20,408 nt of DNA, from positions 1 through 20,408 of the IMG/VR virus record IMGVR_UViG_3300046559_000956; one strand, written 5' to 3'. The DNA comes from a virus. Each line of letters starts with the position of its first letter. Within the stretch, counting starts at the first letter, position 1. Under the pieces are notes generated by a model. The model was not told the origin of the DNA and did not search any database. It saw only the letters and a program-made list of their open reading frames with translations. Both the position numbers and the translations under genes were made by a program. Shown piece by piece: positions 1,500-16,043 of the stretch.

Positions 1500-1528
1500 G
1501 TTATCGGCGCACCCCTTCAAAGTGTTGT
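1500..1528 (-). promoter_or_regulatory. Promoter copy L (leftward), driving the 116-aa gene
   Basis: Minus-strand copy of the reiterated element: ACAACAC, 16-bp spacer ending in GCC, then GATAAC. It faces away from copy A, and the two -35-like boxes lie about 33 bp apart in the divergent region. The only copy followed directly by an ATG (7 nt) instead of a leader hairpin. Confidence 0.7.
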
Positions 1529-1561
1529 GTCTGCTAGATGCAAAAAAAAGACACATGACAC

Positions 1562-1590
1562 GCAACACTTGGCGGGGCCGGGCCGATACC
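1562..1590 (+). promoter_or_regulatory. Promoter copy A of the reiterated element
   Basis: GCAACAC (1562-1568), 16 bp, GATACC (1585-1590). Ten copies in the window share GCAACAC-N15/16-GATA[AC][CT] with GCC before GATA, and most have an A-tract upstream. Read as a bacterial promoter this is GCAACA, a 17-bp spacer, and GATAAC as the -10. The -35 lacks the TTG of the housekeeping consensus, and its AAC core recalls ECF sigma promoters. In this copy an A-tract at 1542-1549 precedes the box. A weak inverted repeat (1566-1573 with 1598-1605) encloses the -10. Confidence 0.75.
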
Positions 1591-1599
1591 CTTTGTTGC

Positions 1600-1618
1600 C
1601 AGGTGCACGTTGCGCCTG
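1600..1618 (+). promoter_or_regulatory. 5'-leader hairpin with ACGTT pentaloop (copy A)
   Basis: Stem CAGGTGC/GCGCCTG (7 bp, one wobble) closing loop ACGTT (1607-1611). The loop begins 17 nt after the end of the -10, so the stem should sit at the extreme 5' end of the mRNA. Seven other leaders carry the same loop type on different stems. Confidence 0.7.
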
Positions 1619-1642
1619 CCAACAAAAAAGTAGGGTATACAC

Positions 1643-1927
1643 ATGAGCACAATTTCATTTGACGTTATCGGCAAAACCGGCACCAAACTGACGACCATCA
1701 AGCTTGAGCCAGGGTTCAAGGATGTGGACGTTCAATTTGCCCTGTGGGATGCGGGCATCAAGGAGGCCAAAATCATGTCGCGGGTTGTGGTGCGTGACGC
1801 CACCCCGGGTAGCTTGAACCTGGACATTTACATCAAGGGCACGCGCACCCCAAGCTTTGGATTGAAGCAAAACCTTTCCAGTCAAACGTTTGGCGACGTG
1901 GCCAATCTTTTCAAAATCAACGGATGA
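1643..1927 (+). CDS. Hypothetical protein (94 aa), first gene of rightward cluster
   Basis: A 94-residue, probably beta-rich cytoplasmic protein. Short alternating strands (TKLTTIKLEP, VDVQFALWDAG, SLNLDIYIKG) suggest a compact beta sandwich or ferredoxin-like fold. The ATG follows GTAGGGTATACAC, the local version of the shared ribosome-binding element. It has its own promoter (copy A) and leader hairpin, and is followed after 4 nt by promoter copy B, so it is probably a single-gene transcription unit. No family recognised; its place next to the divergent promoters fits an early phage protein. Confidence 0.75.
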   Translation: MSTISFDVIGKTGTKLTTIKLEPGFKDVDVQFALWDAGIKEAKIMSRVVVRDATPGSLNLDIYIKGTRTPSFGLKQNLSSQTFGDVANLFKING

Positions 1928-1931
1928 TGTA

Positions 1932-1959
1932 GCAACACATGGGCAGGTGCGCCGATAAT
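1932..1959 (+). promoter_or_regulatory. Promoter copy B
   Basis: GCAACAC (1932-1938), 15-bp spacer, GATAAT, the closest match to a TATAAT -10 box. An 8-bp perfect inverted repeat, GGCAGGTG (1942-1949) with CACCTGCC (1974-1981), puts the -10 in its loop, and GCCGATA also pairs with TATCGGC inside. No ACRTY hairpin follows. Confidence 0.7.
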
Positions 1960-1999
1960 TAAGGTATCGGCAACACCTGCCGCATGTGAGGGTAGATAG

Positions 2000-2188
2000 A
2001 TGGATCGCAAGGACTTAATGGCAATGTGCGCACACCTGACCGTGGCCTGTATGGCCATGGCCAGCGACCTAGAGCACCTGGAAGGTGCCCTGGCTGTGGC
2101 TTTGCAAGATGCGCTGGCATCGTGCGAGGCAACGCAAGATGCCATACAGACCGTGCTACTGGCCCAAGATGACTTGGGCGTCAAGTAG
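2000..2188 (+). CDS. Hypothetical small helical protein (62 aa)
   Basis: A 62-residue, Ala/Leu/Met-rich acidic protein, predicted as one or two amphipathic helices (for example LEHLEGALAVALQDALASCEA), which fits a small coiled-coil or helical-hairpin protein. The ATG at 2000 follows GAGGGTAGATAG. Promoter copy B lies upstream and a strong terminator-like hairpin begins 7 nt after the stop, so this appears to be a one-gene unit. No family recognised; an inhibitor or adaptor of a host protein would fit the size, but nothing shows it. Confidence 0.68.
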   Translation: MDRKDLMAMCAHLTVACMAMASDLEHLEGALAVALQDALASCEATQDAIQTVLLAQDDLGVK

Positions 2189-2195
2189 CACGCTG

Positions 2196-2238
2196 CCCGG
2201 GGCAAGGTTAGCTACCCTCGCCTTGCCCCGGGTACTTT
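2196..2238 (+). terminator. Intrinsic terminator with anti-RBS loop
   Basis: Perfect 12-bp stem, CCCGGGGCAAGG (2196-2207) with CCTTGCCCCGGG (2221-2232), 13-nt loop, then TACTTT. The U-tract is short but the stem is very stable. The loop (2208-2220) ends in GCTACCCTCG, the exact reverse complement of CGAGGGTAGC, which is the ribosome-binding element before the gene at 5570; eight of these bases also match the leaders at 2542, 5070 and 5270. Confidence 0.65.
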
Positions 2239-2268
2239 CGACGCAACACTTAACATTAGAGGTAGATG

Positions 2269-2445
2269 ATGAAGCCTGAATTCAAAAAAGAGTATCTTAA
2301 GCGCCTGAAGGATATTGTAGCCCGCGTGCAAGCCGACGAATGTTATTGCGAGGACGTGCCGGAAGACGGGATTTGCGAGGATTGTCCGATTAACGGGGGT
2401 GACCTTGTAAACGCGATGATGGAAGAAATCGCCGCGCTGGAATAA
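2269..2445 (+). CDS. Acidic Cys-containing micro-protein (58 aa)
   Basis: A 58-residue acidic protein with four cysteines in two pairs, CYC and CEDC (about residues 25-40), able to hold one zinc ion or form disulphides. A basic N-terminal helix (KPEFKKEYLKRLKDIVARV) precedes it and an acidic helix (MMEEIAALE) follows. Two adjacent ATGs (2266, 2269) are possible; the second gives better spacing from GAGGTAG. The upstream region holds GCAACAC at 2243-2249 but no GATAA box at the expected distance, so its promoter is unclear. No family recognised. It closely precedes promoter copy D. Confidence 0.65.
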   Translation: MKPEFKKEYLKRLKDIVARVQADECYCEDVPEDGICEDCPINGGDLVNAMMEEIAALE

Positions 2446-2462
2446 AAAAAGACACATGACAC

Positions 2463-2491
2463 GCAACACTTGACGGCCACGCGCCGATAAC
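2463..2491 (+). promoter_or_regulatory. Promoter copy D, driving the DUF932 gene
   Basis: GCAACAC, 16 bp, GATAAC. The upstream flank (AAAAAAAGACACATGACAC) is almost identical to that of copy A, so these two copies share at least 28 bp. The inverted repeat around the -10 is weak here (4 bp). Confidence 0.72.
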
Positions 2492-2503
2492 TTAATCATG
2501 CAA

Positions 2504-2518
2504 CGTGCACATCGCACG
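2504..2518 (+). promoter_or_regulatory. 5'-leader hairpin with ACATC pentaloop (copy D)
   Basis: Perfect 5-bp stem CGTGC/GCACG closing ACATC (2509-2513), 18 nt from the -10 and 23 nt before the ATG. Confidence 0.62.
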
Positions 2519-2541
2519 GTAGCACACTAAAGGGTAGCACA

Positions 2542-3357
2542 ATGAGAATTATCAACGCCGAATATTTGAGCAAGAATCCCGTTCAAGCCACGCAAGCGCA
2601 CGCCGCCGTGAGCGACAAGTATCAATTCGTCAATAGCGAGCAAATCCTGGCCATCTTTGCCCAAGCCGGATGGACGCCCGTGTCGCAAACCGCCATCGTG
2701 CCCCGCAAGGAATCGCGTCAAGGTTTTCAAAAACACATGGTGCGCTTGGAGCACCCCGATTATCAAACCATGCCCGGCCTTGAAGGCGTGCACACCACGC
2801 GCCCCCAATTGTTAATGATTAACAGCCACGACCGCGCGTCAAGCTTGCGGCTAATGTGGGGCATGTTTCGCATGGCGTGCCTCAACGGCATCGTGACGGG
2901 CGAATCCGTCAATGAAGTCAAACTGACCCACAACACGAAGATGGCCGAACGTCTGCCCGCCGCCTTGCAACAGCTACTCAACGCCTTCCCGACCATGATG
3001 CAACAAGCCGAGCAGCTGGCCCGCACACAGCTAACAGACGCCGCCGTGCAGCAATTAATTAAGACCGTGTACGATGCCCGCCTTGAGGGAAGCGAGAAGA
3101 TTGTGAGTGTAGATTATCGGCTGCCCTACGTTCGGCGCAGCGCAGACACCGGCAACGACGCCTTCACCATCTTCAACCGCGTGCAAGAAGCAGCCATACG
3201 CGGCGGCATTGGCTACACGTACGAGCGCCAGGTAAAGGACCGTTATGGCGACACCTACGCGCGCCTTGCCTACGCTAGGAGCCGCGAGATTAAGGCCATC
3301 GACCAAAGTGTGAAAATCAATCGGCTCGCCTACAACGCCGCCTTGGCCCTAGTGTAA
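2542..3357 (+). CDS. DUF932 family phage protein
   Basis: A 271-residue protein that resembles DUF932, a family of unknown biochemical role found in phages and plasmids. Family hallmarks are the start (AVSDKYQFVNSEQIL, residues 22-36), the KHMVRLEHP segment (64-72), the core LLMINSHDRASSLRLM (90-105) and FRMACLNGIV (109-118). It is likely soluble, mixed alpha/beta with a helical C-terminus, and of typical length for the shorter members. The ATG follows AAAGGGTAGCACA. Promoter copy D and its hairpin precede it, and copy E begins 8 nt after the stop. The family often sits beside replication and recombination genes, consistent with the clamp gene nearby, but no activity can be assigned. Confidence 0.85.
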   Translation: MRIINAEYLSKNPVQATQAHAAVSDKYQFVNSEQILAIFAQAGWTPVSQTAIVPRKESRQGFQKHMVRLEHPDYQTMPGLEGVHTTRPQLLMINSHDRASSLRLMWGMFRMACLNGIVTGESVNEVKLTHNTKMAERLPAALQQLLNAFPTMMQQAEQLARTQLTDAAVQQLIKTVYDARLEGSEKIVSVDYRLPYVRRSADTGNDAFTIFNRVQEAAIRGGIGYTYERQVKDRYGDTYARLAYARSREIKAIDQSVKINRLAYNAALALV

Positions 3358-3364
3358 AAAGTAA

Positions 3365-3393
3365 GCAACGCCTGCGCCCGCCATGCCGATAAC
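3365..3393 (+). promoter_or_regulatory. Promoter copy E with -10 inside a 13-bp palindrome
   Basis: GCAACGC, 16 bp, GATAAC. GCGCCCGCCATGC (3374-3386) pairs over 13 bp (one G-T) with 3398-3410, leaving the 11-nt loop CGATAACTCAA that presents the -10. The 3' arm is also the 5' arm of the following ACGGT hairpin, so the two folds exclude each other. Confidence 0.75.
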
Positions 3394-3404
3394 TCAAGCA
3401 TGGT

Positions 3405-3421
3405 GGGCGCACGGTGCGCCC
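3405..3421 (+). promoter_or_regulatory. 5'-leader hairpin with ACGGT pentaloop (copy E)
   Basis: Perfect 6-bp stem GGGCGC/GCGCCC closing ACGGT (3411-3415). This loop deviates at position 4 from the ACRTY pattern of the other seven. Confidence 0.62.
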
Positions 3422-3443
3422 CCTGAAAATAGAGGGTAACACA

Positions 3444-3983
3444 ATGGGCACACGCAACTTGACCATGATTAAGCTAAACGGGGAATTGAAACTTGCCAAC
3501 TACGGCCAATGGGATGGATACCCCACAGGCCAAGGCGAGACCGTCGCCGCCTTCATCCAAGCCTACCTGTTAGATGACACGCTGCGCGCCGAGTTTGCCG
3601 CCAAGGTGGCCAAACTCAAATTTGCCACCGACGCCGAGTTAGAGGAATTGGAAGCCAGGGAGGTGGCCATGCTGGAAGCCCAACGCAATGGCGAGCACGT
3701 GGCCACATACATGCTAGATAAGTTTGTTGCCTTTGACCGCGACACTGGCGCGACCATCCTTCAAAAAATCTGGAACGGGCTGCACTGCCAGATTGTGAAG
3801 GATGATAGCGAGTTTTTGAAGGACACGTTGTTTTGCGAATGGGCCTACTGTGTGGACCTGGACACCTGCAAGGTGGACGTTTACATGAGCACGGTTGAGC
3901 CCGTCGCCTCTATCCCGTTCACCGATTTTACCGTTATCTCTATGCGCGCCCTTGAAGCGATGTTGCGGGTACGGGAAGGATAA
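3444..3983 (+). CDS. MGTRNLT-type phage protein of unknown function
   Basis: A 179-residue protein opening with MGTRNLTMIKLNGELK, followed by ANYGQWDGYPTGQGETVAAFI (residues 19-39, split in two strands). I recognise this start (GTRNL, then YGQWDGYP.GQG) from phage and bacterial hypothetical proteins without known function. The middle is an acidic helix (ATDAELEELEAREVAMLEAQ) and the C-terminal half is mixed, with four cysteines around residues 113-153. An in-frame GTG at 3414 lies within the leader hairpin and is rejected; the ATG at 3444 follows GAGGGTAACACA. Cytoplasmic. Own promoter copy E; copy F starts 5 nt after the stop. Confidence 0.82.
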   Translation: MGTRNLTMIKLNGELKLANYGQWDGYPTGQGETVAAFIQAYLLDDTLRAEFAAKVAKLKFATDAELEELEAREVAMLEAQRNGEHVATYMLDKFVAFDRDTGATILQKIWNGLHCQIVKDDSEFLKDTLFCEWAYCVDLDTCKVDVYMSTVEPVASIPFTDFTVISMRALEAMLRVREG

Positions 3984-3987
3984 GTAA

Positions 3988-4016
3988 GCAACACCTACGC
4001 GCCGCACGCCGATAAC
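3988..4016 (+). promoter_or_regulatory. Promoter copy F with -10 inside an 11-bp palindrome
   Basis: GCAACAC, 16 bp, GATAAC. GCGCCGCACGC (3999-4009) pairs with GTGTGCGGCGC (4021-4031), one G-T, with loop CGATAACTAAG. The stem sequence differs completely from copy E although the loop is nearly the same. Confidence 0.75.
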
Positions 4017-4024
4017 TAAGGTGT

Positions 4025-4043
4025 GCGGCGCACGTTGCGCTGC
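4025..4043 (+). promoter_or_regulatory. 5'-leader hairpin with ACGTT pentaloop (copy F)
   Basis: 7-bp stem GCGGCGC/GCGCTGC (one wobble) closing ACGTT (4032-4036), 16 nt from the -10. Confidence 0.68.
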
Positions 4044-4066
4044 CGACACAATAGAAGGTAGCACCC

Positions 4067-4651
4067 ATGAAACTCCCAAAACACGTTATCAACCTGTACC
4101 GCTTCACAAGCACCGATGAAATACGCGTCGCCCTGCAACACGTGTGCATTGAATACACCGCCGGCAATGCCATCGCCACCGCCGTGGCCACCGACGGCCA
4201 CCGCCTTGTCTACCTGGAATTTGACATGGGTGGCTTTCGGCCTACCGACGGCAAACTGTACCTGCACCGCGACGTTCTCAAAAACATCAAGTTAGGCAAA
4301 GACGGCGTGGCCAACCTTAACGACGGATACATCACGGCCACAGCCAAGGGTGCCACCACGCGCTATGATGCGAGCTATGACTTGCAAGGCTACAGCTACC
4401 CCACCTGGCGACGGTGCCTCGACGGCGCGCCAGACGATGATGCCACGCCGTGCAGCATCATCGGCGTCAATGCCCGCTACCTGGCCGACTTTGCCGACTA
4501 TCTCAAGGCGTGTGGTGTGGACTATCGTGTCGGCTTTGAGATGCCCGCCGATGATATATCTGTCATGGCCATGACCGCGCACGGTGACATCAACGGCACC
4601 GACGACAAGACCCAAGCCATCCGTTATCTGCTAATGCCCATGCGGCTGTAA
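4067..4651 (+). CDS. Shortened DNA polymerase III beta sliding clamp homologue
   Basis: A 194-residue protein, about half a bacterial DnaN (near 366 aa). ATDGHRLVYLEF (residues 41-52) matches the domain II signature ATDGHRLA; YSYPTWRRCL (109-118) matches the FPDYRRVL end of domain II; GVNARYLADFADYL (133-146) matches the FNVSYVLDVLNAL helix of domain III; and the C-terminus YLLMPMRL equals the YVVMPMRL ending of E. coli DnaN. Domain I and the first half of domain III are missing. The retained residues (T42, G44, H45, R46, L47 and M190-L194) are those that line the clamp's partner-binding cleft. It could be a reduced phage clamp forming a different ring, or a decoy for clamp-binding proteins. 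The ATG follows GAAGGTAGCACCC. Homology confident from remembered DnaN sequence; function inferred. Confidence 0.82.
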   Translation: MKLPKHVINLYRFTSTDEIRVALQHVCIEYTAGNAIATAVATDGHRLVYLEFDMGGFRPTDGKLYLHRDVLKNIKLGKDGVANLNDGYITATAKGATTRYDASYDLQGYSYPTWRRCLDGAPDDDATPCSIIGVNARYLADFADYLKACGVDYRVGFEMPADDISVMAMTAHGDINGTDDKTQAIRYLLMPMRL

Positions 4652-4654
4652 GGC

Positions 4655-4682
4655 GCAACACGATGCACGCCGCGCCGATAAT
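4655..4682 (+). promoter_or_regulatory. Promoter copy G with -10 inside a 13-bp palindrome
   Basis: GCAACAC, 15 bp, GATAAT, starting 4 nt after the clamp stop codon. TGCACGCCGCGCC (4664-4676) pairs with 4687-4699 over 13 bp (one G-T), loop GATAATCTAG. Confidence 0.75.
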
Positions 4683-4691
4683 CTAGGGCGT

Positions 4692-4710
4692 GGCGTGCAC
4701 GTTGCGCGCC
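4692..4710 (+). promoter_or_regulatory. 5'-leader hairpin with ACGTT pentaloop (copy G)
   Basis: 7-bp stem GGCGTGC/GCGCGCC (one wobble) closing ACGTT (4699-4703). Confidence 0.68.
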
Positions 4711-4728
4711 ACCGGCAAAGGAGCACCC

Positions 4729-4998
4729 ATGAAAACGATTGGCATTGGCTATTGCGGGCCCGAATACCCTGGCGATTGTGCTGACTGTGGCGAGCCGATT
4801 ATGAACGACGAATATTGGGGGCCCATCTGCCCGGACTGTAGCGCACCGCCTGAGCTGCGCGCCGAGCTGTCAGCGAGGTGCGCCGGATGTGGCGTGTCGG
4901 GCGATTACAGCGCCAATGAGCATGGCGAGTGTCACCGCTGCGCCGCCCTGGCGCCGACCGACAATGACTTTTATTTGCTGCGCGACAAAATAATCTAA
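4729..4998 (+). CDS. Double zinc-ribbon protein (89 aa)
   Basis: An 89-residue protein with two four-cysteine clusters. The first is CADCGEP with CPDCSAP (residues 17-37), the second CAGCGVS with CHRC (48-69); each pair spacing CxxC...CxxC is classical for zinc ribbons. The C-terminus (NDFYLLRDKII) may be a short helix or partner motif. The ATG at 4729 follows AAAGGAGCACCC, the only leader here with a strong GGAG core. An in-frame upstream GTG at 4690 lies inside the promoter palindrome and is rejected. Zinc ribbons of this kind usually bind nucleic acid or RNA polymerase; the partner here is unknown. Confidence 0.8.
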   Translation: MKTIGIGYCGPEYPGDCADCGEPIMNDEYWGPICPDCSAPPELRAELSARCAGCGVSGDYSANEHGECHRCAALAPTDNDFYLLRDKII

Positions 4999-5030
4999 CC
5001 ACGCCGCTACCATGCTGTGTATGTGATGAT

Positions 5031-5047
5031 GTGGCCACGTCGGCCAC
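5031..5047 (+). promoter_or_regulatory. Leader hairpin with ACGTC loop but no upstream promoter (copy H)
   Basis: Perfect 6-bp stem GTGGCC/GGCCAC closing ACGTC (5037-5041), 22 nt before the ATG at 5070. The 32 nt between the previous stop and this hairpin lack both GCAACAC and GATAA. The hairpin is therefore kept without the promoter, which points to a role in RNA. Confidence 0.65.
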
Positions 5048-5069
5048 CACAACACGGTAGGGTAGCACA

Positions 5070-5189
5070 ATGAACGGACACTTAATTAAGAAGGTATATC
5101 TCGAAAGCTTGAAGACGGTATCGCCCACACTTGAGCGCGACCTTGAAATCGCCCGGATTCTACTCAAGACCATGAACACCAAAAAGTAA
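5070..5189 (+). CDS. Micro-protein (39 aa)
   Basis: A 39-residue basic peptide, predicted as one long amphipathic helix (LIKKVYLESLKT, then TLERDLEIARILLKTM). The start is supported by GGTAGGGTAGCACA directly upstream, identical to the leaders at 2542 and 5270, and by the conserved leader hairpin. Without its own promoter it is probably expressed by read-through from the zinc-ribbon gene 71 nt upstream. Too short for family assignment. Helical phage micro-proteins of this size often bind and inhibit a host enzyme, but this one shows no recognisable target motif. Confidence 0.65.
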   Translation: MNGHLIKKVYLESLKTVSPTLERDLEIARILLKTMNTKK

Positions 5190-5197
5190 GCAGCCAC

Positions 5198-5226
5198 GCA
5201 ACACGTGCGCCCATGCCGCCGATAAC
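5198..5226 (+). promoter_or_regulatory. Promoter copy I with -10 inside a 13-bp palindrome
   Basis: GCAACAC, 16 bp, GATAAC. GTGCG plus CCCATGCC (5205-5217) pair with GGCATGGG plus CGCAC (5230-5243) with a single bulged C at 5238, loop GCCGATAACTAT. Confidence 0.75.
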
Positions 5227-5235
5227 TATGGCATG

Positions 5236-5252
5236 GGCCGCACGTTGTGGCC
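5236..5252 (+). promoter_or_regulatory. 5'-leader hairpin with ACGTT pentaloop (copy I)
   Basis: 6-bp stem GGCCGC/GTGGCC closing ACGTT (5242-5246). Both arms changed relative to copies A, F and G while pairing is kept, a compensatory pattern. Confidence 0.68.
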
Positions 5253-5269
5253 TAAGATAGGGTAGCACA

Positions 5270-5470
5270 ATGAAACTATACACCTTCACCGACGCTGACA
5301 ATGCATACATCTTCGGGACCGGGCCCGAGACTGTGGCAGCCAATACCGACACCGACGCCCCGGCTGACTACGCGGGCCCATGCCCCGAGTGTGCTGAAGA
5401 GATGACCCCGGACACCTGCTACCACGGCATGTGCCTGAGCTGCGCCCTGGCCATGGTGGGCGAGTACTAG
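5270..5470 (+). CDS. Small zinc-ribbon-like protein (66 aa)
   Basis: A 66-residue acidic protein. The N-terminal half (MKLYTFTDADNAYIFGTG) looks like two short strands. The C-terminal half carries CPECAEEMTPDTC (38-50) and CLSC (55-58), with His52 between, a likely single zinc site. The ATG follows ATAGGGTAGCACA. It resembles the 89-aa zinc-ribbon protein upstream only in cysteine pattern, so the cluster may hold a small family of zinc micro-proteins. Own promoter copy I and leader hairpin. Function unknown. Confidence 0.75.
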   Translation: MKLYTFTDADNAYIFGTGPETVAANTDTDAPADYAGPCPECAEEMTPDTCYHGMCLSCALAMVGEY

Positions 5471-5496
5471 GCCCGCTAAAAAAGTACGGTAGGCAC

Positions 5497-5525
5497 GCAA
5501 CACAACGGGCGTGCCTGCCGATACC
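5497..5525 (+). promoter_or_regulatory. Promoter copy J
   Basis: GCAACAC, 16 bp, GATACC. Here the inverted repeat is shifted upstream: GGTAGGCACGC (5488-5498) pairs with GCGTGCCTGCC (5509-5519), one wobble, enclosing the -35 side instead of the -10. An A-tract (5478-5483) lies upstream. Confidence 0.7.
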
Positions 5526-5534
5526 TTCTAGTGT

Positions 5535-5553
5535 GTGGCGCACATCGCGCCGC
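5535..5553 (+). promoter_or_regulatory. 5'-leader hairpin with ACATC pentaloop (copy J)
   Basis: 7-bp stem GTGGCGC/GCGCCGC (one wobble) closing ACATC (5542-5546), 17 nt from the -10. Confidence 0.65.
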
Positions 5554-5569
5554 CAGCGAGGGTAGCACA

Positions 5570-5740
5570 ATGAAGATGACCACCAGCCAACGCATCAGCC
5601 AAATCCAAGCCCAGATTGACCGCGCCATTGACCTGCGCCACCGCGCCGAGTTTGAGGGCATGTACGAGGCCGCCAGCCAGCTGGCCGACTTTGAGACCCG
5701 GGCCCGGGCTGAGGTGCAGCGACTCCTAAAGACGCTGTGA
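5570..5740 (+). CDS. Small coiled-coil protein (56 aa)
   Basis: A 56-residue protein that appears to be an antiparallel helical pair: ISQIQAQIDRAIDLRHRAE (residues 9-27) and a second helix from 30 to 55 ending in EVQRLLKTL, rich in Ala, Gln, Arg and Glu with heptad-like spacing. The ATG follows CGAGGGTAGCACA, the sequence exactly complementary to the terminator loop at 2211-2220. It is the last gene of the uniformly spaced cluster before the 270-nt gap. No family recognised; dimerisation is likely from the helix pattern. Confidence 0.72.
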   Translation: MKMTTSQRISQIQAQIDRAIDLRHRAEFEGMYEAASQLADFETRARAEVQRLLKTL

Positions 5741-5754
5741 CCTGACACGGTAAA

Positions 5755-5773
5755 GGGCCCAGTCAGAGGGCCC
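5755..5773 (+). terminator. GGGCCC hairpin after the 56-aa gene, possible terminator
   Basis: Two copies of GGGCCC (5755-5760, 5768-5773) flank a 7-nt spacer and can pair as a 6-bp all-GC stem, 14 nt after the stop codon. No U-tract follows, so intrinsic termination is uncertain; it may only stabilise the mRNA 3' end. Confidence 0.35.
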
Positions 5774-5779
5774 ACACCG

Positions 5780-5818
5780 CACGTGTGCCAGCGCCAGGTG
5801 CCACGTGTGCCTGCGCCA
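5780..5818 (+). repeat. Tandem direct repeats (iteron-like), spaced 22 bp
   Basis: CACGTGTGCCAGCGCCA (5780-5796) and CACGTGTGCCTGCGCCA (5802-5818) are identical at 16 of 17 positions and repeat every 22 bp, two helical turns. Degenerate GCCAGCGCC-type units continue to about 5860. A third copy lies at 6779-6795. Such phased repeats suit a protein-binding array such as a replication origin or operator. Confidence 0.55.
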
Positions 5819-5903
5819 ATGCCAGGGCCATGCCAAGTTACTTGCCAGCGCCTGCCACGCCGTGTGAGGGTAGCAGACGCGGCTGTGGGGGGAATCCTGA
5901 CCG

Positions 5904-5962
5904 CACTAGGGAGCGCCCAAGGCCGGTGTTTTGCACCAGACCCTAGTGGTAGGGCGCTTTTC
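5904..5962 (+). promoter_or_regulatory. Attenuator-like switch upstream of the 126-aa gene
   Basis: Two interleaved inverted repeats. CACTAGGG (5904-5911) pairs with CCCTAGTG (5941-5948). AGCGCCC (5912-5918) pairs with GGGCGCT (5952-5958), which is followed by TTTT as in an intrinsic terminator. A small GGTG/CACC hairpin sits between. The order a-b-a'-b' makes the two stems mutually exclusive or, less likely, a pseudoknot, because no nucleotide separates a from b. The start codon lies 47 nt beyond the T-run. Confidence 0.5.
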
Positions 5963-6009
5963 AAGGTATTGACGAATTCCACGATTCCACCTTCTCAAGG
6001 GCTGCCCAC

Positions 6010-6390
6010 ATGGCGCGCGATAAGACACCCAAGGCCGAGATTACCGTCGCACCCAGTGTGGCCCATGGCGTGCAAATCATGCGTCGCCACGTGGCCACCG
6101 CTGCCCGGGCCGAGTTCAGCGGCAAGGTGCAACGGCCACGCAACTACGCGGCTCTATTGAGTGAGGTGTGGGGCATGGCTGAAGACTTGATTCTATCCGT
6201 CAAACTGTCCGACGAGCCACTGCCTCGCAAGGTGGGCATGCTGCGCGACCTAACCAAGCTACTGCCTGCGCTCGACAAGGCCGAAAGCCGCCACCGCGTG
6301 CACATTGGCAAGCGCGTGGTGCAAGACATGACGGACCATGACCTGGAGCGGGCTGTCAGTGAACTGTTGAAGCGCAAAAAAGACACGTGA
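6010..6390 (+). CDS. Hypothetical helical protein (126 aa)
   Basis: A 126-residue basic, almost entirely helical protein with a basic N-terminus (MARDKTPKAEI) and a Lys/Arg-rich C-terminus (ELLKRKKDT). The middle (LPRKVGMLRDLTKLLPALDKAESRHRVH) is an amphipathic helix with charged faces. The size and character would allow a small terminase subunit or another DNA-binding protein, but no helix-turn-helix can be pointed to and the gene is 3.5 kb from the large subunit. Its leader is different from the others: no ACRTY hairpin, the ribosome-binding region is CTCAAGGG, and a putative attenuator precedes it, so its control probably differs from its neighbours. Confidence 0.72.
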   Translation: MARDKTPKAEITVAPSVAHGVQIMRRHVATAARAEFSGKVQRPRNYAALLSEVWGMAEDLILSVKLSDEPLPRKVGMLRDLTKLLPALDKAESRHRVHIGKRVVQDMTDHDLERAVSELLKRKKDT

Positions 6391-6394
6391 GCAC

Positions 6395-6423
6395 GCAACA
6401 CTTTGCGGGGTCGTGCCGATAAT
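6395..6423 (+). promoter_or_regulatory. Promoter copy K, orphan (no gene directly downstream)
   Basis: GCAACAC, 16 bp, GATAAT, with an AAAAAAGACACGTGAGCAC flank like copies A and D. A hairpin GGTGC/GCGCC (6435-6439 with 6448-6452) sits at the usual leader position, but its 8-nt loop is AGCTGTCG instead of ACRTY. No AGGGTAGCACA and no convincing ORF follow. Confidence 0.7.
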
Positions 6424-6429
6424 TATAGG

Positions 6430-6560
6430 TGTGGGGTGCAGCTGTCGGCGCCCGGATGAAGCAAAGGACGGGGGGGCCCTACTGGGGGTACCTACCAAGG
6501 GGGGAGTATTGGACGGCGCCGGCGCGGGCGCGCCCGATTCCCCCTGAGAGTTTATGTGTG
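6430..6560 (+). ncRNA. Candidate structured non-coding RNA from promoter K
   Basis: Downstream of copy K the sequence is G-rich with runs of 7, 5 and 6 G (about 6470-6504) that could form a quadruplex. It then folds into a strong hairpin: GGGGGAGT (6500-6507) pairs with ATTCCCCC (6537-6544) around a GC-only core that includes the palindrome CGGGCGCGCCCG (6525-6536). The 37-codon frame at 6456-6569 has no ribosome-binding site and an odd composition, so a structured RNA is the better reading. Untested. Confidence 0.35.
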
Positions 6561-6565
6561 GCGAG

Positions 6566-6688
6566 TTAGTAACGACCCTGTGATTTCATAATAGAAAATA
6601 ACAAAACAATGCCTGTGACCAGCAAAGGCAACGACACAACGAGAACGACCCACGTCAACATGAGATAGTAATACAGTGCCCGCGCCAA
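6566..6688 (-). CDS. Possible micro membrane protein (31-40 aa)
   Basis: The frame from ATG 6661 (31 aa) or TTG 6688 (40 aa) encodes one clear transmembrane helix (WVVLVVSLPLLVTGIVLLF) followed by a short basic tail (IMKSQGRY). No good ribosome-binding site is visible for either start, so expression is doubtful. The helix length and positive-inside tail are nevertheless typical of a single-span phage protein. It follows the small frame at 6695-6817 with a 6-nt gap, which fits a two-gene unit antisense to the gene-poor region. Confidence 0.35.
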   Translation of the reverse strand: MARALYYYLMLTWVVLVVSLPLLVTGIVLLFSIMKSQGRY

Positions 6689-9720: not shown

Positions 9721-9878
9721 AGGTTTGGGTGGTGCTAAATCACGTCCCCAACGAGACCGTTGATTGGCACGATGAGATTGCCGCAGTATGCGCCAGCCAG
9801 GCCCTAGCCGAGAAGCTGGCGGCGGCATCAGAGTATTTTACACATATCGAGGAGCACGAGGTTCGCGCAGAATTATGA
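9717..9878 (+). CDS. Small protein (53 aa) bridging into terminase
   Basis: A 53-residue acidic protein starting at GTG 9717, which overlaps the preceding TGA (GTGA), and ending at TGA 9876-9878, which overlaps the terminase ATG (ATGA). Such stop-start overlaps at both ends argue strongly for a real, translationally coupled gene. The sequence has an N-terminal strand (VKVWVVLNHV) and a helix rich in Ala and Glu (EIAAVCASQALAEKLAAASEYF). No family recognised. Confidence 0.62.
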   Translation: MKVWVVLNHVPNETVDWHDEIAAVCASQALAEKLAAASEYFTHIEEHEVRAEL

Positions 9879-11458: not shown

Positions 11459-11693
11459 GGGCCTGGTCATCGAGTGGCACGGCCCCCAAGACGCCGGCGA
11501 CGACGACCAGCCCCTGGACGACGCCGGCGACCGACCCGGTGACGATTTGGGGGAGTACGTGCTGGCCCGGACGAAAAACGACGCCCCCCAAGGCCCCTTG
11601 CTGCCGGCTGAGGTGGCCGAGGTGGTAAACTTGGCGCAAGATTACGACCGCTGGGACCGCTACGAGGCGGGCCCGGTTTCAGAGGGTGACTGA
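11334..11693 (+). CDS. Acidic protein (119 aa) starting inside terL
   Basis: A 119-residue strongly acidic protein between terminase and portal. The ATG at 11334 has AAGGAG 8 nt upstream, inside terL, giving a 125-nt overlap. In the overlap this frame has more G/C third positions than the terL frame, supporting translation from 11334. Features: VKSLAYEGLVIEWHGPQ, then an Asp-rich stretch (DAGDDDQPLDDAGDRPGDD), then a helix ending in DYDRWDRYEAGPVSEGD. The stop overlaps the portal ATG (TGATG). The place in the operon suggests a packaging or head accessory protein; no family recognised. Confidence 0.72.
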   Translation: MPSKNDPKVIPTNPLGSEETMTQLTRLLESGRACGVKSLAYEGLVIEWHGPQDAGDDDQPLDDAGDRPGDDLGEYVLARTKNDAPQGPLLPAEVAEVVNLAQDYDRWDRYEAGPVSEGD

Positions 11694-14732: not shown

Positions 14733-16043
14733 ATGCCAGTTGGAATCACGAACTTTCAGGCCATCTTCAAGACTTACTACGACCAGGACACCCTGCCTTG
14801 GCTGGTGCCCAACAACCTGCCGTTTTTCAATCTCATCCCCAAGCAGGACGGCTTAAGCGGCGATGTGATTGACCACGTGTTCAAGTACGGCCCCTCCCAG
14901 GGTTTCAGCACCGACTTCAACACCGCCATGACCTCCGCCTCGTCGGCCCCCAAAGCCGCCCGGGCCGCCATCCGCTGCTCGCAGGCGTACGCCGCTGTCG
15001 AATTTTTCGACAAGGACAAGGCCCTCACCGATGGCGAGGCCGCCTACGCCGACCTCGTGACCGAGGTGATGACCGGCAAGCTGATGGACTTTTACAAGAA
15101 CCTGGACATGGAGTTTCACGGTTCGGGTACCGGCTGGCGCGGCACCGTGGCCGCAGGCCCCGGCCAGGCCAACCCCTTCAGCCCCAACGGCGCGACCCTT
15201 GCCGCCAACCAAGTCGCCATTGCCCAGGGCATGGCCTTGGAGACGGTGTTTGACCAGGACCAGATGCTGCAGCCGGCCACCTACGCGGGCTTCCCTGTGG
15301 CAGGTTCGGTGTTCCCGCCGTCCGACGGCCGCACCCCCACCTCGTTGGGCAGCGCTGTGCAGGTTATTGCCGTTGACGGCATCAACCGCACCCTGACCTT
15401 GACCGACGCCTCGGCCTTTGTTGCCGGCACCTTCATCTTGCAGGCCGGCGGAGCTGTGGGCTTCAACAGCAGCAACCTCAACGGCGCCATTATCGGCATG
15501 GACAGCTGGGTGCCCTACGGCGGCGTGACAGGCTCAGACTCGTTTTTGAGCATTAACCGCAGCCCTTATCCCACGCGTATGGCCGGCTACTGGCTGGACG
15601 GGTCAAAATTCGCCATTGAGGATGCCCTCAAGCGGCTGAGCGCCAAAATGAGCCAGGGCGGCGCGCGCGAGAGCAACGTGGGCCTCGTCAACCCCATGGA
15701 CTTTGACGCCCTGGATTCCAAGTTGGGCACCAACGTCCGCTACGGCACCGTGCAGACGGCCACCTACGGCTTTGACAGCATCGTCATCAACGGCGCCGCT
15801 GGCCGCATCGACATGGTCCCCGACCCCCATCAGCCCCAGGGCTACGCCCGTATCATCGACCCCTCCACGTGGATTTTGAACCACAAGTACGAGGTGCCGC
15901 ATATCGTGGACGTGGAGAACCGGACGATGGAGCAGGGCGCTAACTTTGACGGTAGAACCGCTCGTTTGCGCTTCTACGGCCAGTTGCGCTGCAAGCAGCC
16001 CCACAAAAACGGTGTTGTGAAGCTGCCTTCCGTCATCATCTAA
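14733..16043 (+). CDS. Major capsid protein (HK97-fold type)
   Basis: A 436-residue coat protein, identified by position after scaffold and by family-like features: N-terminal FQAIFKTYYDQDTLPWLVPNN split by FFNLIPK, the EFFDKDKALTDGEAAYADLVTEVM helix region (the long spine helix), an inserted beta-rich domain (about residues 150-260), and a C-terminal core with GLVNPMDFDALDSKLG, YGFDSIVINGAAG and DGRTARLRFYGQLRC. No N-terminal cleavable scaffold domain is present, matching the separate scaffold gene. The ATG at 14733 is preceded by a stable stem-loop. Expected to be the most abundant virion protein. Confidence 0.88.
   Translation: MPVGITNFQAIFKTYYDQDTLPWLVPNNLPFFNLIPKQDGLSGDVIDHVFKYGPSQGFSTDFNTAMTSASSAPKAARAAIRCSQAYAAVEFFDKDKALTDGEAAYADLVTEVMTGKLMDFYKNLDMEFHGSGTGWRGTVAAGPGQANPFSPNGATLAANQVAIAQGMALETVFDQDQMLQPATYAGFPVAGSVFPPSDGRTPTSLGSAVQVIAVDGINRTLTLTDASAFVAGTFILQAGGAVGFNSSNLNGAIIGMDSWVPYGGVTGSDSFLSINRSPYPTRMAGYWLDGSKFAIEDALKRLSAKMSQGGARESNVGLVNPMDFDALDSKLGTNVRYGTVQTATYGFDSIVINGAAGRIDMVPDPHQPQGYARIIDPSTWILNHKYEVPHIVDVENRTMEQGANFDGRTARLRFYGQLRCKQPHKNGVVKLPSVII

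Follow-up and report, generated by a model that had tools for sequence, protein, structure and literature searches.

Can a single RNA loop encoded by a phage pair with, and so damp, the ribosome-binding sites of many of its early genes? The question is raised by hairpin B (2194–2234, +), found in a fragment of an uncultured phage; the virus record is 20,408 bases long and is referred to below as the window. The early genes of this phage lie at 1643–5740; the terminase gene is at 9875, the portal gene at 11693, and the major capsid protein gene at 14733.

Hairpin B and the early region

Hairpin B has a stem of 12 perfect base pairs on the + strand, formed by CCCGGGGCAAGG (2196–2207) and CCTTGCCCCGGG (2221–2232), which encloses a 13-nt loop, TTAGCTACCCTCG (2208–2220). 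Stem and loop are thus as the original prediction described them. The stem is extended by the pairs U2194-A2234, G2195-U2233, and U2208-G2220. Its fold is predicted at -32.4 kcal/mol (z -4.3), a stability that no shuffle equaled, and no other perfect stem of at least 12 bp exists in the 20.4-kb window (10 shuffles gave none). The loop is accessible, with a predicted opening cost of 1.7 kcal/mol. Hairpin B sits between two small open reading frames (ORFs): gene 2000 (2000–2188, +), a 62-aa ORF directly upstream whose product matched no known family, and a 59-aa ORF at 2266–2445. A further structure, hairpin A (2152–2192, +), overlaps the stop codon of gene 2000 and stacks directly on hairpin B; the predicted fold of the two together (2150–2240) is -56.7 kcal/mol. 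If a gene 2000 mRNA is made, it would have hairpin B within its 3' untranslated region (UTR).

Hairpin B had been labeled a terminator, and this label is not supported. The stem is GC-rich, but it is followed by TACTTTCGAC, without a U-tract, and its 3' tail, TACTTTCG, has four T in eight bases and no U-run. We therefore reject a canonical intrinsic terminator at this position. Hairpin B is also absent from a terminator scan, which takes only loops of up to 8 nt, while this loop has 13. Given the lack of a canonical terminator and the loop limit of the scan, a transcript end at 2238 is an assumption. A comparison with Rfam covariance models found nothing at the gathering threshold anywhere in the window, and nothing in 1500–6600 at an E value of 1. 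With a stem that lacks a U-run and no match to an RNA family, the sequence does not support the small RNA that had been proposed to end here.

The early region carries an array of sigma28-like promoters (CAACAC, then GCCGATA). The pattern AACAC/AACGC, 11–13 nt, GCCGATA occurs at one - site (1508) and nine + sites (1582, 1951, 2483, 3385, 4008, 4674, 5218, 5517, and 6415), where shuffles lead one to expect 0.005. Nine of the 10 sites stand directly in front of an ORF, which is a + strand gene in eight cases and a leftward gene in one; the site at 6415 has only a short 37-codon frame downstream. The promoter at 1934–1957 (+; AACAC...GCCGATA) is the presumed driver of gene 2000 and hairpin B. Gene 2266, which lacks its own promoter, has the ACGCAACACTT part only; gene 5070 has neither. 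Known sigma28 promoters have the layout TAAAGTTT-n11-GCCGATAA (PMC2859248). When the -35-like octamer of the phage is taken as CAACACTT, its spacer is 10–11 nt and matches this layout, whereas the octamer itself differs. A flagellar-type -10 box would be an unusual feature of phage early genes, and the 10 promoters nearly all precede single small early genes. This array around hairpin B may deserve more attention.

At many of these promoters, the -10 box is flanked by inverted-repeat arms that vary from site to site, and an arm pairs better with its own partner than with one swapped in from another site (permutation p 0.0009 and 0.002). The -10 box lies within the inverted-repeat loop at 3367–3410, 3990–4045, 4657–4705, 5200–5250, and other promoters. 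There is a loose likeness to the hairpin promoters of the N4 virion polymerase (PMC4496689), although the loop is 12–15 nt here and 3 nt in N4. Another possible role of the arms is to form 3' hairpins on the upstream mRNA. Several leaders have a possible second small hairpin after the -10 box, with the core GCA-CGT-TGC or close to it. In contig L131, which is 99.8% identical, the spacer of the 6415 promoter is CTTCGAGGCACGT instead of the TTTGCGGGGTCGT of the window, and the changes are clustered in one arm (6393–6440, L131/L139 comparison).

Two other observations concern the borders of the early genes. The gap at 5741–6009 has no convincing gene; it contains a further GAGGGTAGC (5866–5874) that lacks a suitable start codon, as well as an inverted repeat that ends, near 5953, in GGGCGCTTTT, and is possibly a non-coding RNA. 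A truncated patatin-like phospholipase (2–580, -; Pfam PF01734, E 8.5e-27) lies next to the early genes and is encoded on the other strand.

Complementarity between the loop and the early leaders

The loop is complementary to many of the early leaders. Among the 10 compared (1643, 2000, 2266, 2542, 3444, 4067, 4729, 5070, 5270, and 5570), the longest uninterrupted Watson-Crick complement is at 5570 (10 nt), followed by 2000, 2542, 5070, and 5270 (8 nt each) and 3444 (7 nt). Complements are shorter at 1643 and 4067 (6 nt each), 2266 (5 nt), and 4729 (3 nt). The original prediction had named the matches at 5570, 2542, 5070, and 5270, all of which we confirm as exact; the 8 nt in the leader of gene 2000, upstream of hairpin B, had been missed.

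The leader-complementary segment of the loop, GCTACCCTCG (2211–2220, +), occurs once on the + strand of the window and once on the - strand, at 5566–5557 in the 5570 leader, while 0.03 copies are expected from shuffles. The only + strand 13-mers with an equal number of 7-nt leader matches are those overlapping the loop of hairpin B. By mean duplex energy, the exact loop ranks 24th among the 20,395 + strand 13-mers, and the top rank goes to the 13-mer that begins at 2211. When the loop letters were permuted, 0.2% of the permutations did as well as the actual loop by mean energy and 0.04–0.12% did so by matches; these p-values assume one loop, chosen beforehand. Because many things were looked at, the window has seven perfect stems of at least 9 bp, and one motif is common to the leaders, we estimate that the corrected p is nearer 0.01. 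This suggests, without being conclusive, that the complementarity exceeds chance.

Pairing was also evaluated as net energy, that is, after paying the opening cost of both sides, with transcript starts assumed from the promoter boxes. The best predicted partner is the + strand leader of gene 5570 (5557–5566, CGAGGGTAGC, the 10-nt complement), at -12.2 kcal/mol. It is followed by the leaders of gene 2542, the DUF932 gene (2531–2538, +, AGGGTAGC; -11.8 kcal/mol), gene 2000 (1988–1995, +, GAGGGTAG, complementing loop positions 2212–2219 of the same mRNA; -11.2 kcal/mol), and gene 5270 (5259–5266, +, AGGGTAGC; -9.4 kcal/mol). Predicted pairing is less favorable for gene 3444 (3432–3438, +, GAGGGTA; -7.3 kcal/mol), for gene 4067 (4054–4062, +, GAAGGTAGC, with one mismatch to the loop complement; -6.8 kcal/mol), and for the ribosome-binding site of gene 2266 (2259–2265, +, GAGGTAG), where a bulge is needed (-5.7 kcal/mol). 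The leader of gene 5070 (5059–5066, +, AGGGTAGC) is buried in its own stem (5006–5066) on read-through, which leaves a predicted net of +0.2 kcal/mol. The fold that holds it (5000–5069) is predicted at -35.7 kcal/mol (z -3.8) and sets GCUACC (5006–5011) opposite GGUAGC. Promoterless, and with its ribosome-binding site inside this hairpin, gene 5070 is a candidate cis-controlled second gene.

The early leaders pair with the loop at a mean of -12.8 kcal/mol, and most late leaders pair more weakly. The late leader at 11693 is about as good (-14.9 kcal/mol before opening costs), so the specificity of the loop for early genes is not absolute. Of the original interpretation, in which the loop of a terminated transcript could silence many early leaders, the complementarity, the accessible loop, and the favorable net energies with several leaders stand; a 3'-end small RNA is not supported.

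Relatives of the phage

In IMG/VR, searches with the terminase large subunit (TerL), the major capsid protein (MCP), the early proteins, the loop DNA, and the promoter pattern yielded no relative that spans the loop, and joint change of loop and leaders is therefore not visible. An exact-match search of IMG/VR for the loop plus its closing stem bases found no copy. A DNA search of phages and plasmids gave no match; against phages, TerL reached only about 25% identity, and neither MCP nor gene 4067 had a match. Near-identical IMG/VR contigs start at window position 6201 or later. One distant IMG/VR relative of 45 kb (TerL 61%, MCP 66% identity) has neither the promoter pattern nor a repeated or common leader. 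The early-protein search of IMG/VR recovered remote relatives of the DUF932 gene or gene 3444, and none for gene 1643. In viral and bacterial contigs, the promoter pattern gave apparent chance matches, one per contig, the near-identical contig excepted. The TerL alignment had no match in bacterial genomes that would point to a host.

Possible roles of the loop

We tentatively propose, at somewhat less than even chances, that the 3' loop of gene 2000 is an anti-ribosome-binding element that damps its own and other early mRNAs. Hairpin B would be the 3' structure of a short early gene 2000 mRNA, and its exposed loop, GCUACCCUCG, would pair with GAGGGUAG directly upstream of the start codon in the same mRNA. 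The loop might also pair with this element where it recurs in other early mRNAs; the best partners would be 5570 and 2542, followed by 5270. Such pairing would lower translation initiation on the paired mRNAs, and the other early mRNAs would be masked only when gene 2000 mRNA is present in sufficient amounts. The synthesis of this mRNA, the pairing inside the cell, and its repressive effect are inferred. Since the gene 2000 leader is a near-equal partner (-11.2 kcal/mol, vs -12.2 for 5570), pairing between 5' and 3' UTRs and action in trans are equally likely, and being on the same RNA as the loop, this leader should gain from proximity. A cis contribution within one mRNA is no less likely, and no less economical as an explanation, than a free small RNA. 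A more far-reaching version, which we consider unlikely, is that the 3' loop of one early mRNA acts as a common brake on the whole early regulon, itself included, by reading the Shine-Dalgarno (SD) plus GUAGC leader element and so tying early translation to the abundance of a single transcript. A target of 8–10 pairs that includes G-rich SDs is modest, and the search-corrected significance is only moderate.

If real, the mechanism belongs to a class already known, in which a C-rich loop is aimed at SD regions. In Staphylococcus aureus, UCCCCUG in the 3' UTR of icaR mRNA pairs with its own SD (PMC3868564). Here too, a C-rich 3' UTR motif (loop positions 2212–2219) complements the SD region of the same mRNA (1988–1995; predicted net -11.2 kcal/mol), and cis and trans action are both possible. 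In contrast, the icaR 3' UTR is long and its cleavage by RNase III is proven, whereas the predicted phage 3' UTR is a short hairpin, and its target element is also present in other leaders. A second biochemical precedent is sX13: its C-rich loops repress mRNAs that carry G-rich motifs close to the start codon (PMC3771888). Hairpin B shares with sX13 of Xanthomonas and with S. aureus RNAIII a stable stem, an unpaired C-rich loop, and complementarity to G-rich start-codon motifs in the SD regions of several mRNAs; a 3' end defined by an intrinsic terminator is absent at hairpin B. Moreover, sX13 and RNAIII are free-standing host small RNAs with several loops, whereas hairpin B offers a single loop, in a phage gap, whose complement extends past the SD into the phage-specific GUAGC. 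In the available part of a review of phage-derived regulatory RNAs (PMC12197685), lambda OOP, 24B_1, and VpdS regulate phage genes by base pairing, as is predicted here. Unlike hairpin B, OOP is described there as a cis-encoded antisense RNA with long complementarity, and that part describes no loop aimed at a common early leader. What would be new, if real, is a phage with one common early-gene element and its complement in a single loop.

Nearly as likely as the proposed mechanism is that hairpin B is an ordinary 3'-end or gap hairpin (a transcript stabilizer, an RNase stop, or a weak terminator) whose loop resembles the leaders by chance. Strong hairpins occur in almost all gaps of 1560–5570, most with unrelated loops; C-rich loops tend to suit G-rich SDs; and this is a single case out of several hairpins and many looks. 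The expectation of 0.03 for the 10-nt complement per window and the rarity with which same-letter shuffles equal the match of the loop argue against chance.

The remaining explanations are considerably less probable. It is improbable that the loop controls gene 2266 in cis, pairing with its ribosome-binding site on read-through, as the site of promoterless gene 5070 would be held by GCUACC at 5006–5011. Both promoterless genes do sit behind a hairpin with a GCTACC segment, and the 5000–5069 fold buries the 5070 site, but the fit at 2266 is poor (GAGG-UAG with a bulge; -5.7 kcal/mol, compared with -9 to -12 for the best leaders) and GCTACC is a 6-mer also found in coding sequence. Slightly less probable still is a flip of the loop between the 12-bp inverted arms, by strand switching at the palindrome, in which case the complement was once a + strand ribosome-binding element and has no antisense function. 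Such an event would account for perfect arms, for a minus strand identical to the CGAGGGTAGC before 5570, and for the shortened leader of gene 2266 downstream; yet the flipped element would precede only a TTG, at 5 nt, GAGGTAG already serves gene 2266, and the opposite orientation was not found in any sequence. The original prediction had itself offered a minus-strand ribosome-binding site as an alternative. We reject this explanation, whose probability is close to negligible: GAGGGTAGC does lie 5 nt upstream of a TTG frame on the minus strand (2205–1882, 107 aa), but that frame is antisense to gene 2000, its codon-position composition is wrong (GC1/GC2/GC3 0.47/0.61/0.61 vs 0.69/0.39/0.68 for gene 2000), and no promoter-like -10 box lies upstream on the minus strand.

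If the proposed anti-ribosome-binding loop is real, it would provide a simple shutdown of many early genes by one RNA loop, acting through their identical ribosome-binding element. It would also be a phage example of the mechanisms known from bacterial C-rich loops and from 5'-3' UTR pairing. If it is not real, hairpin B illustrates how readily C-rich loops mimic regulators near G-rich ribosome-binding sites.
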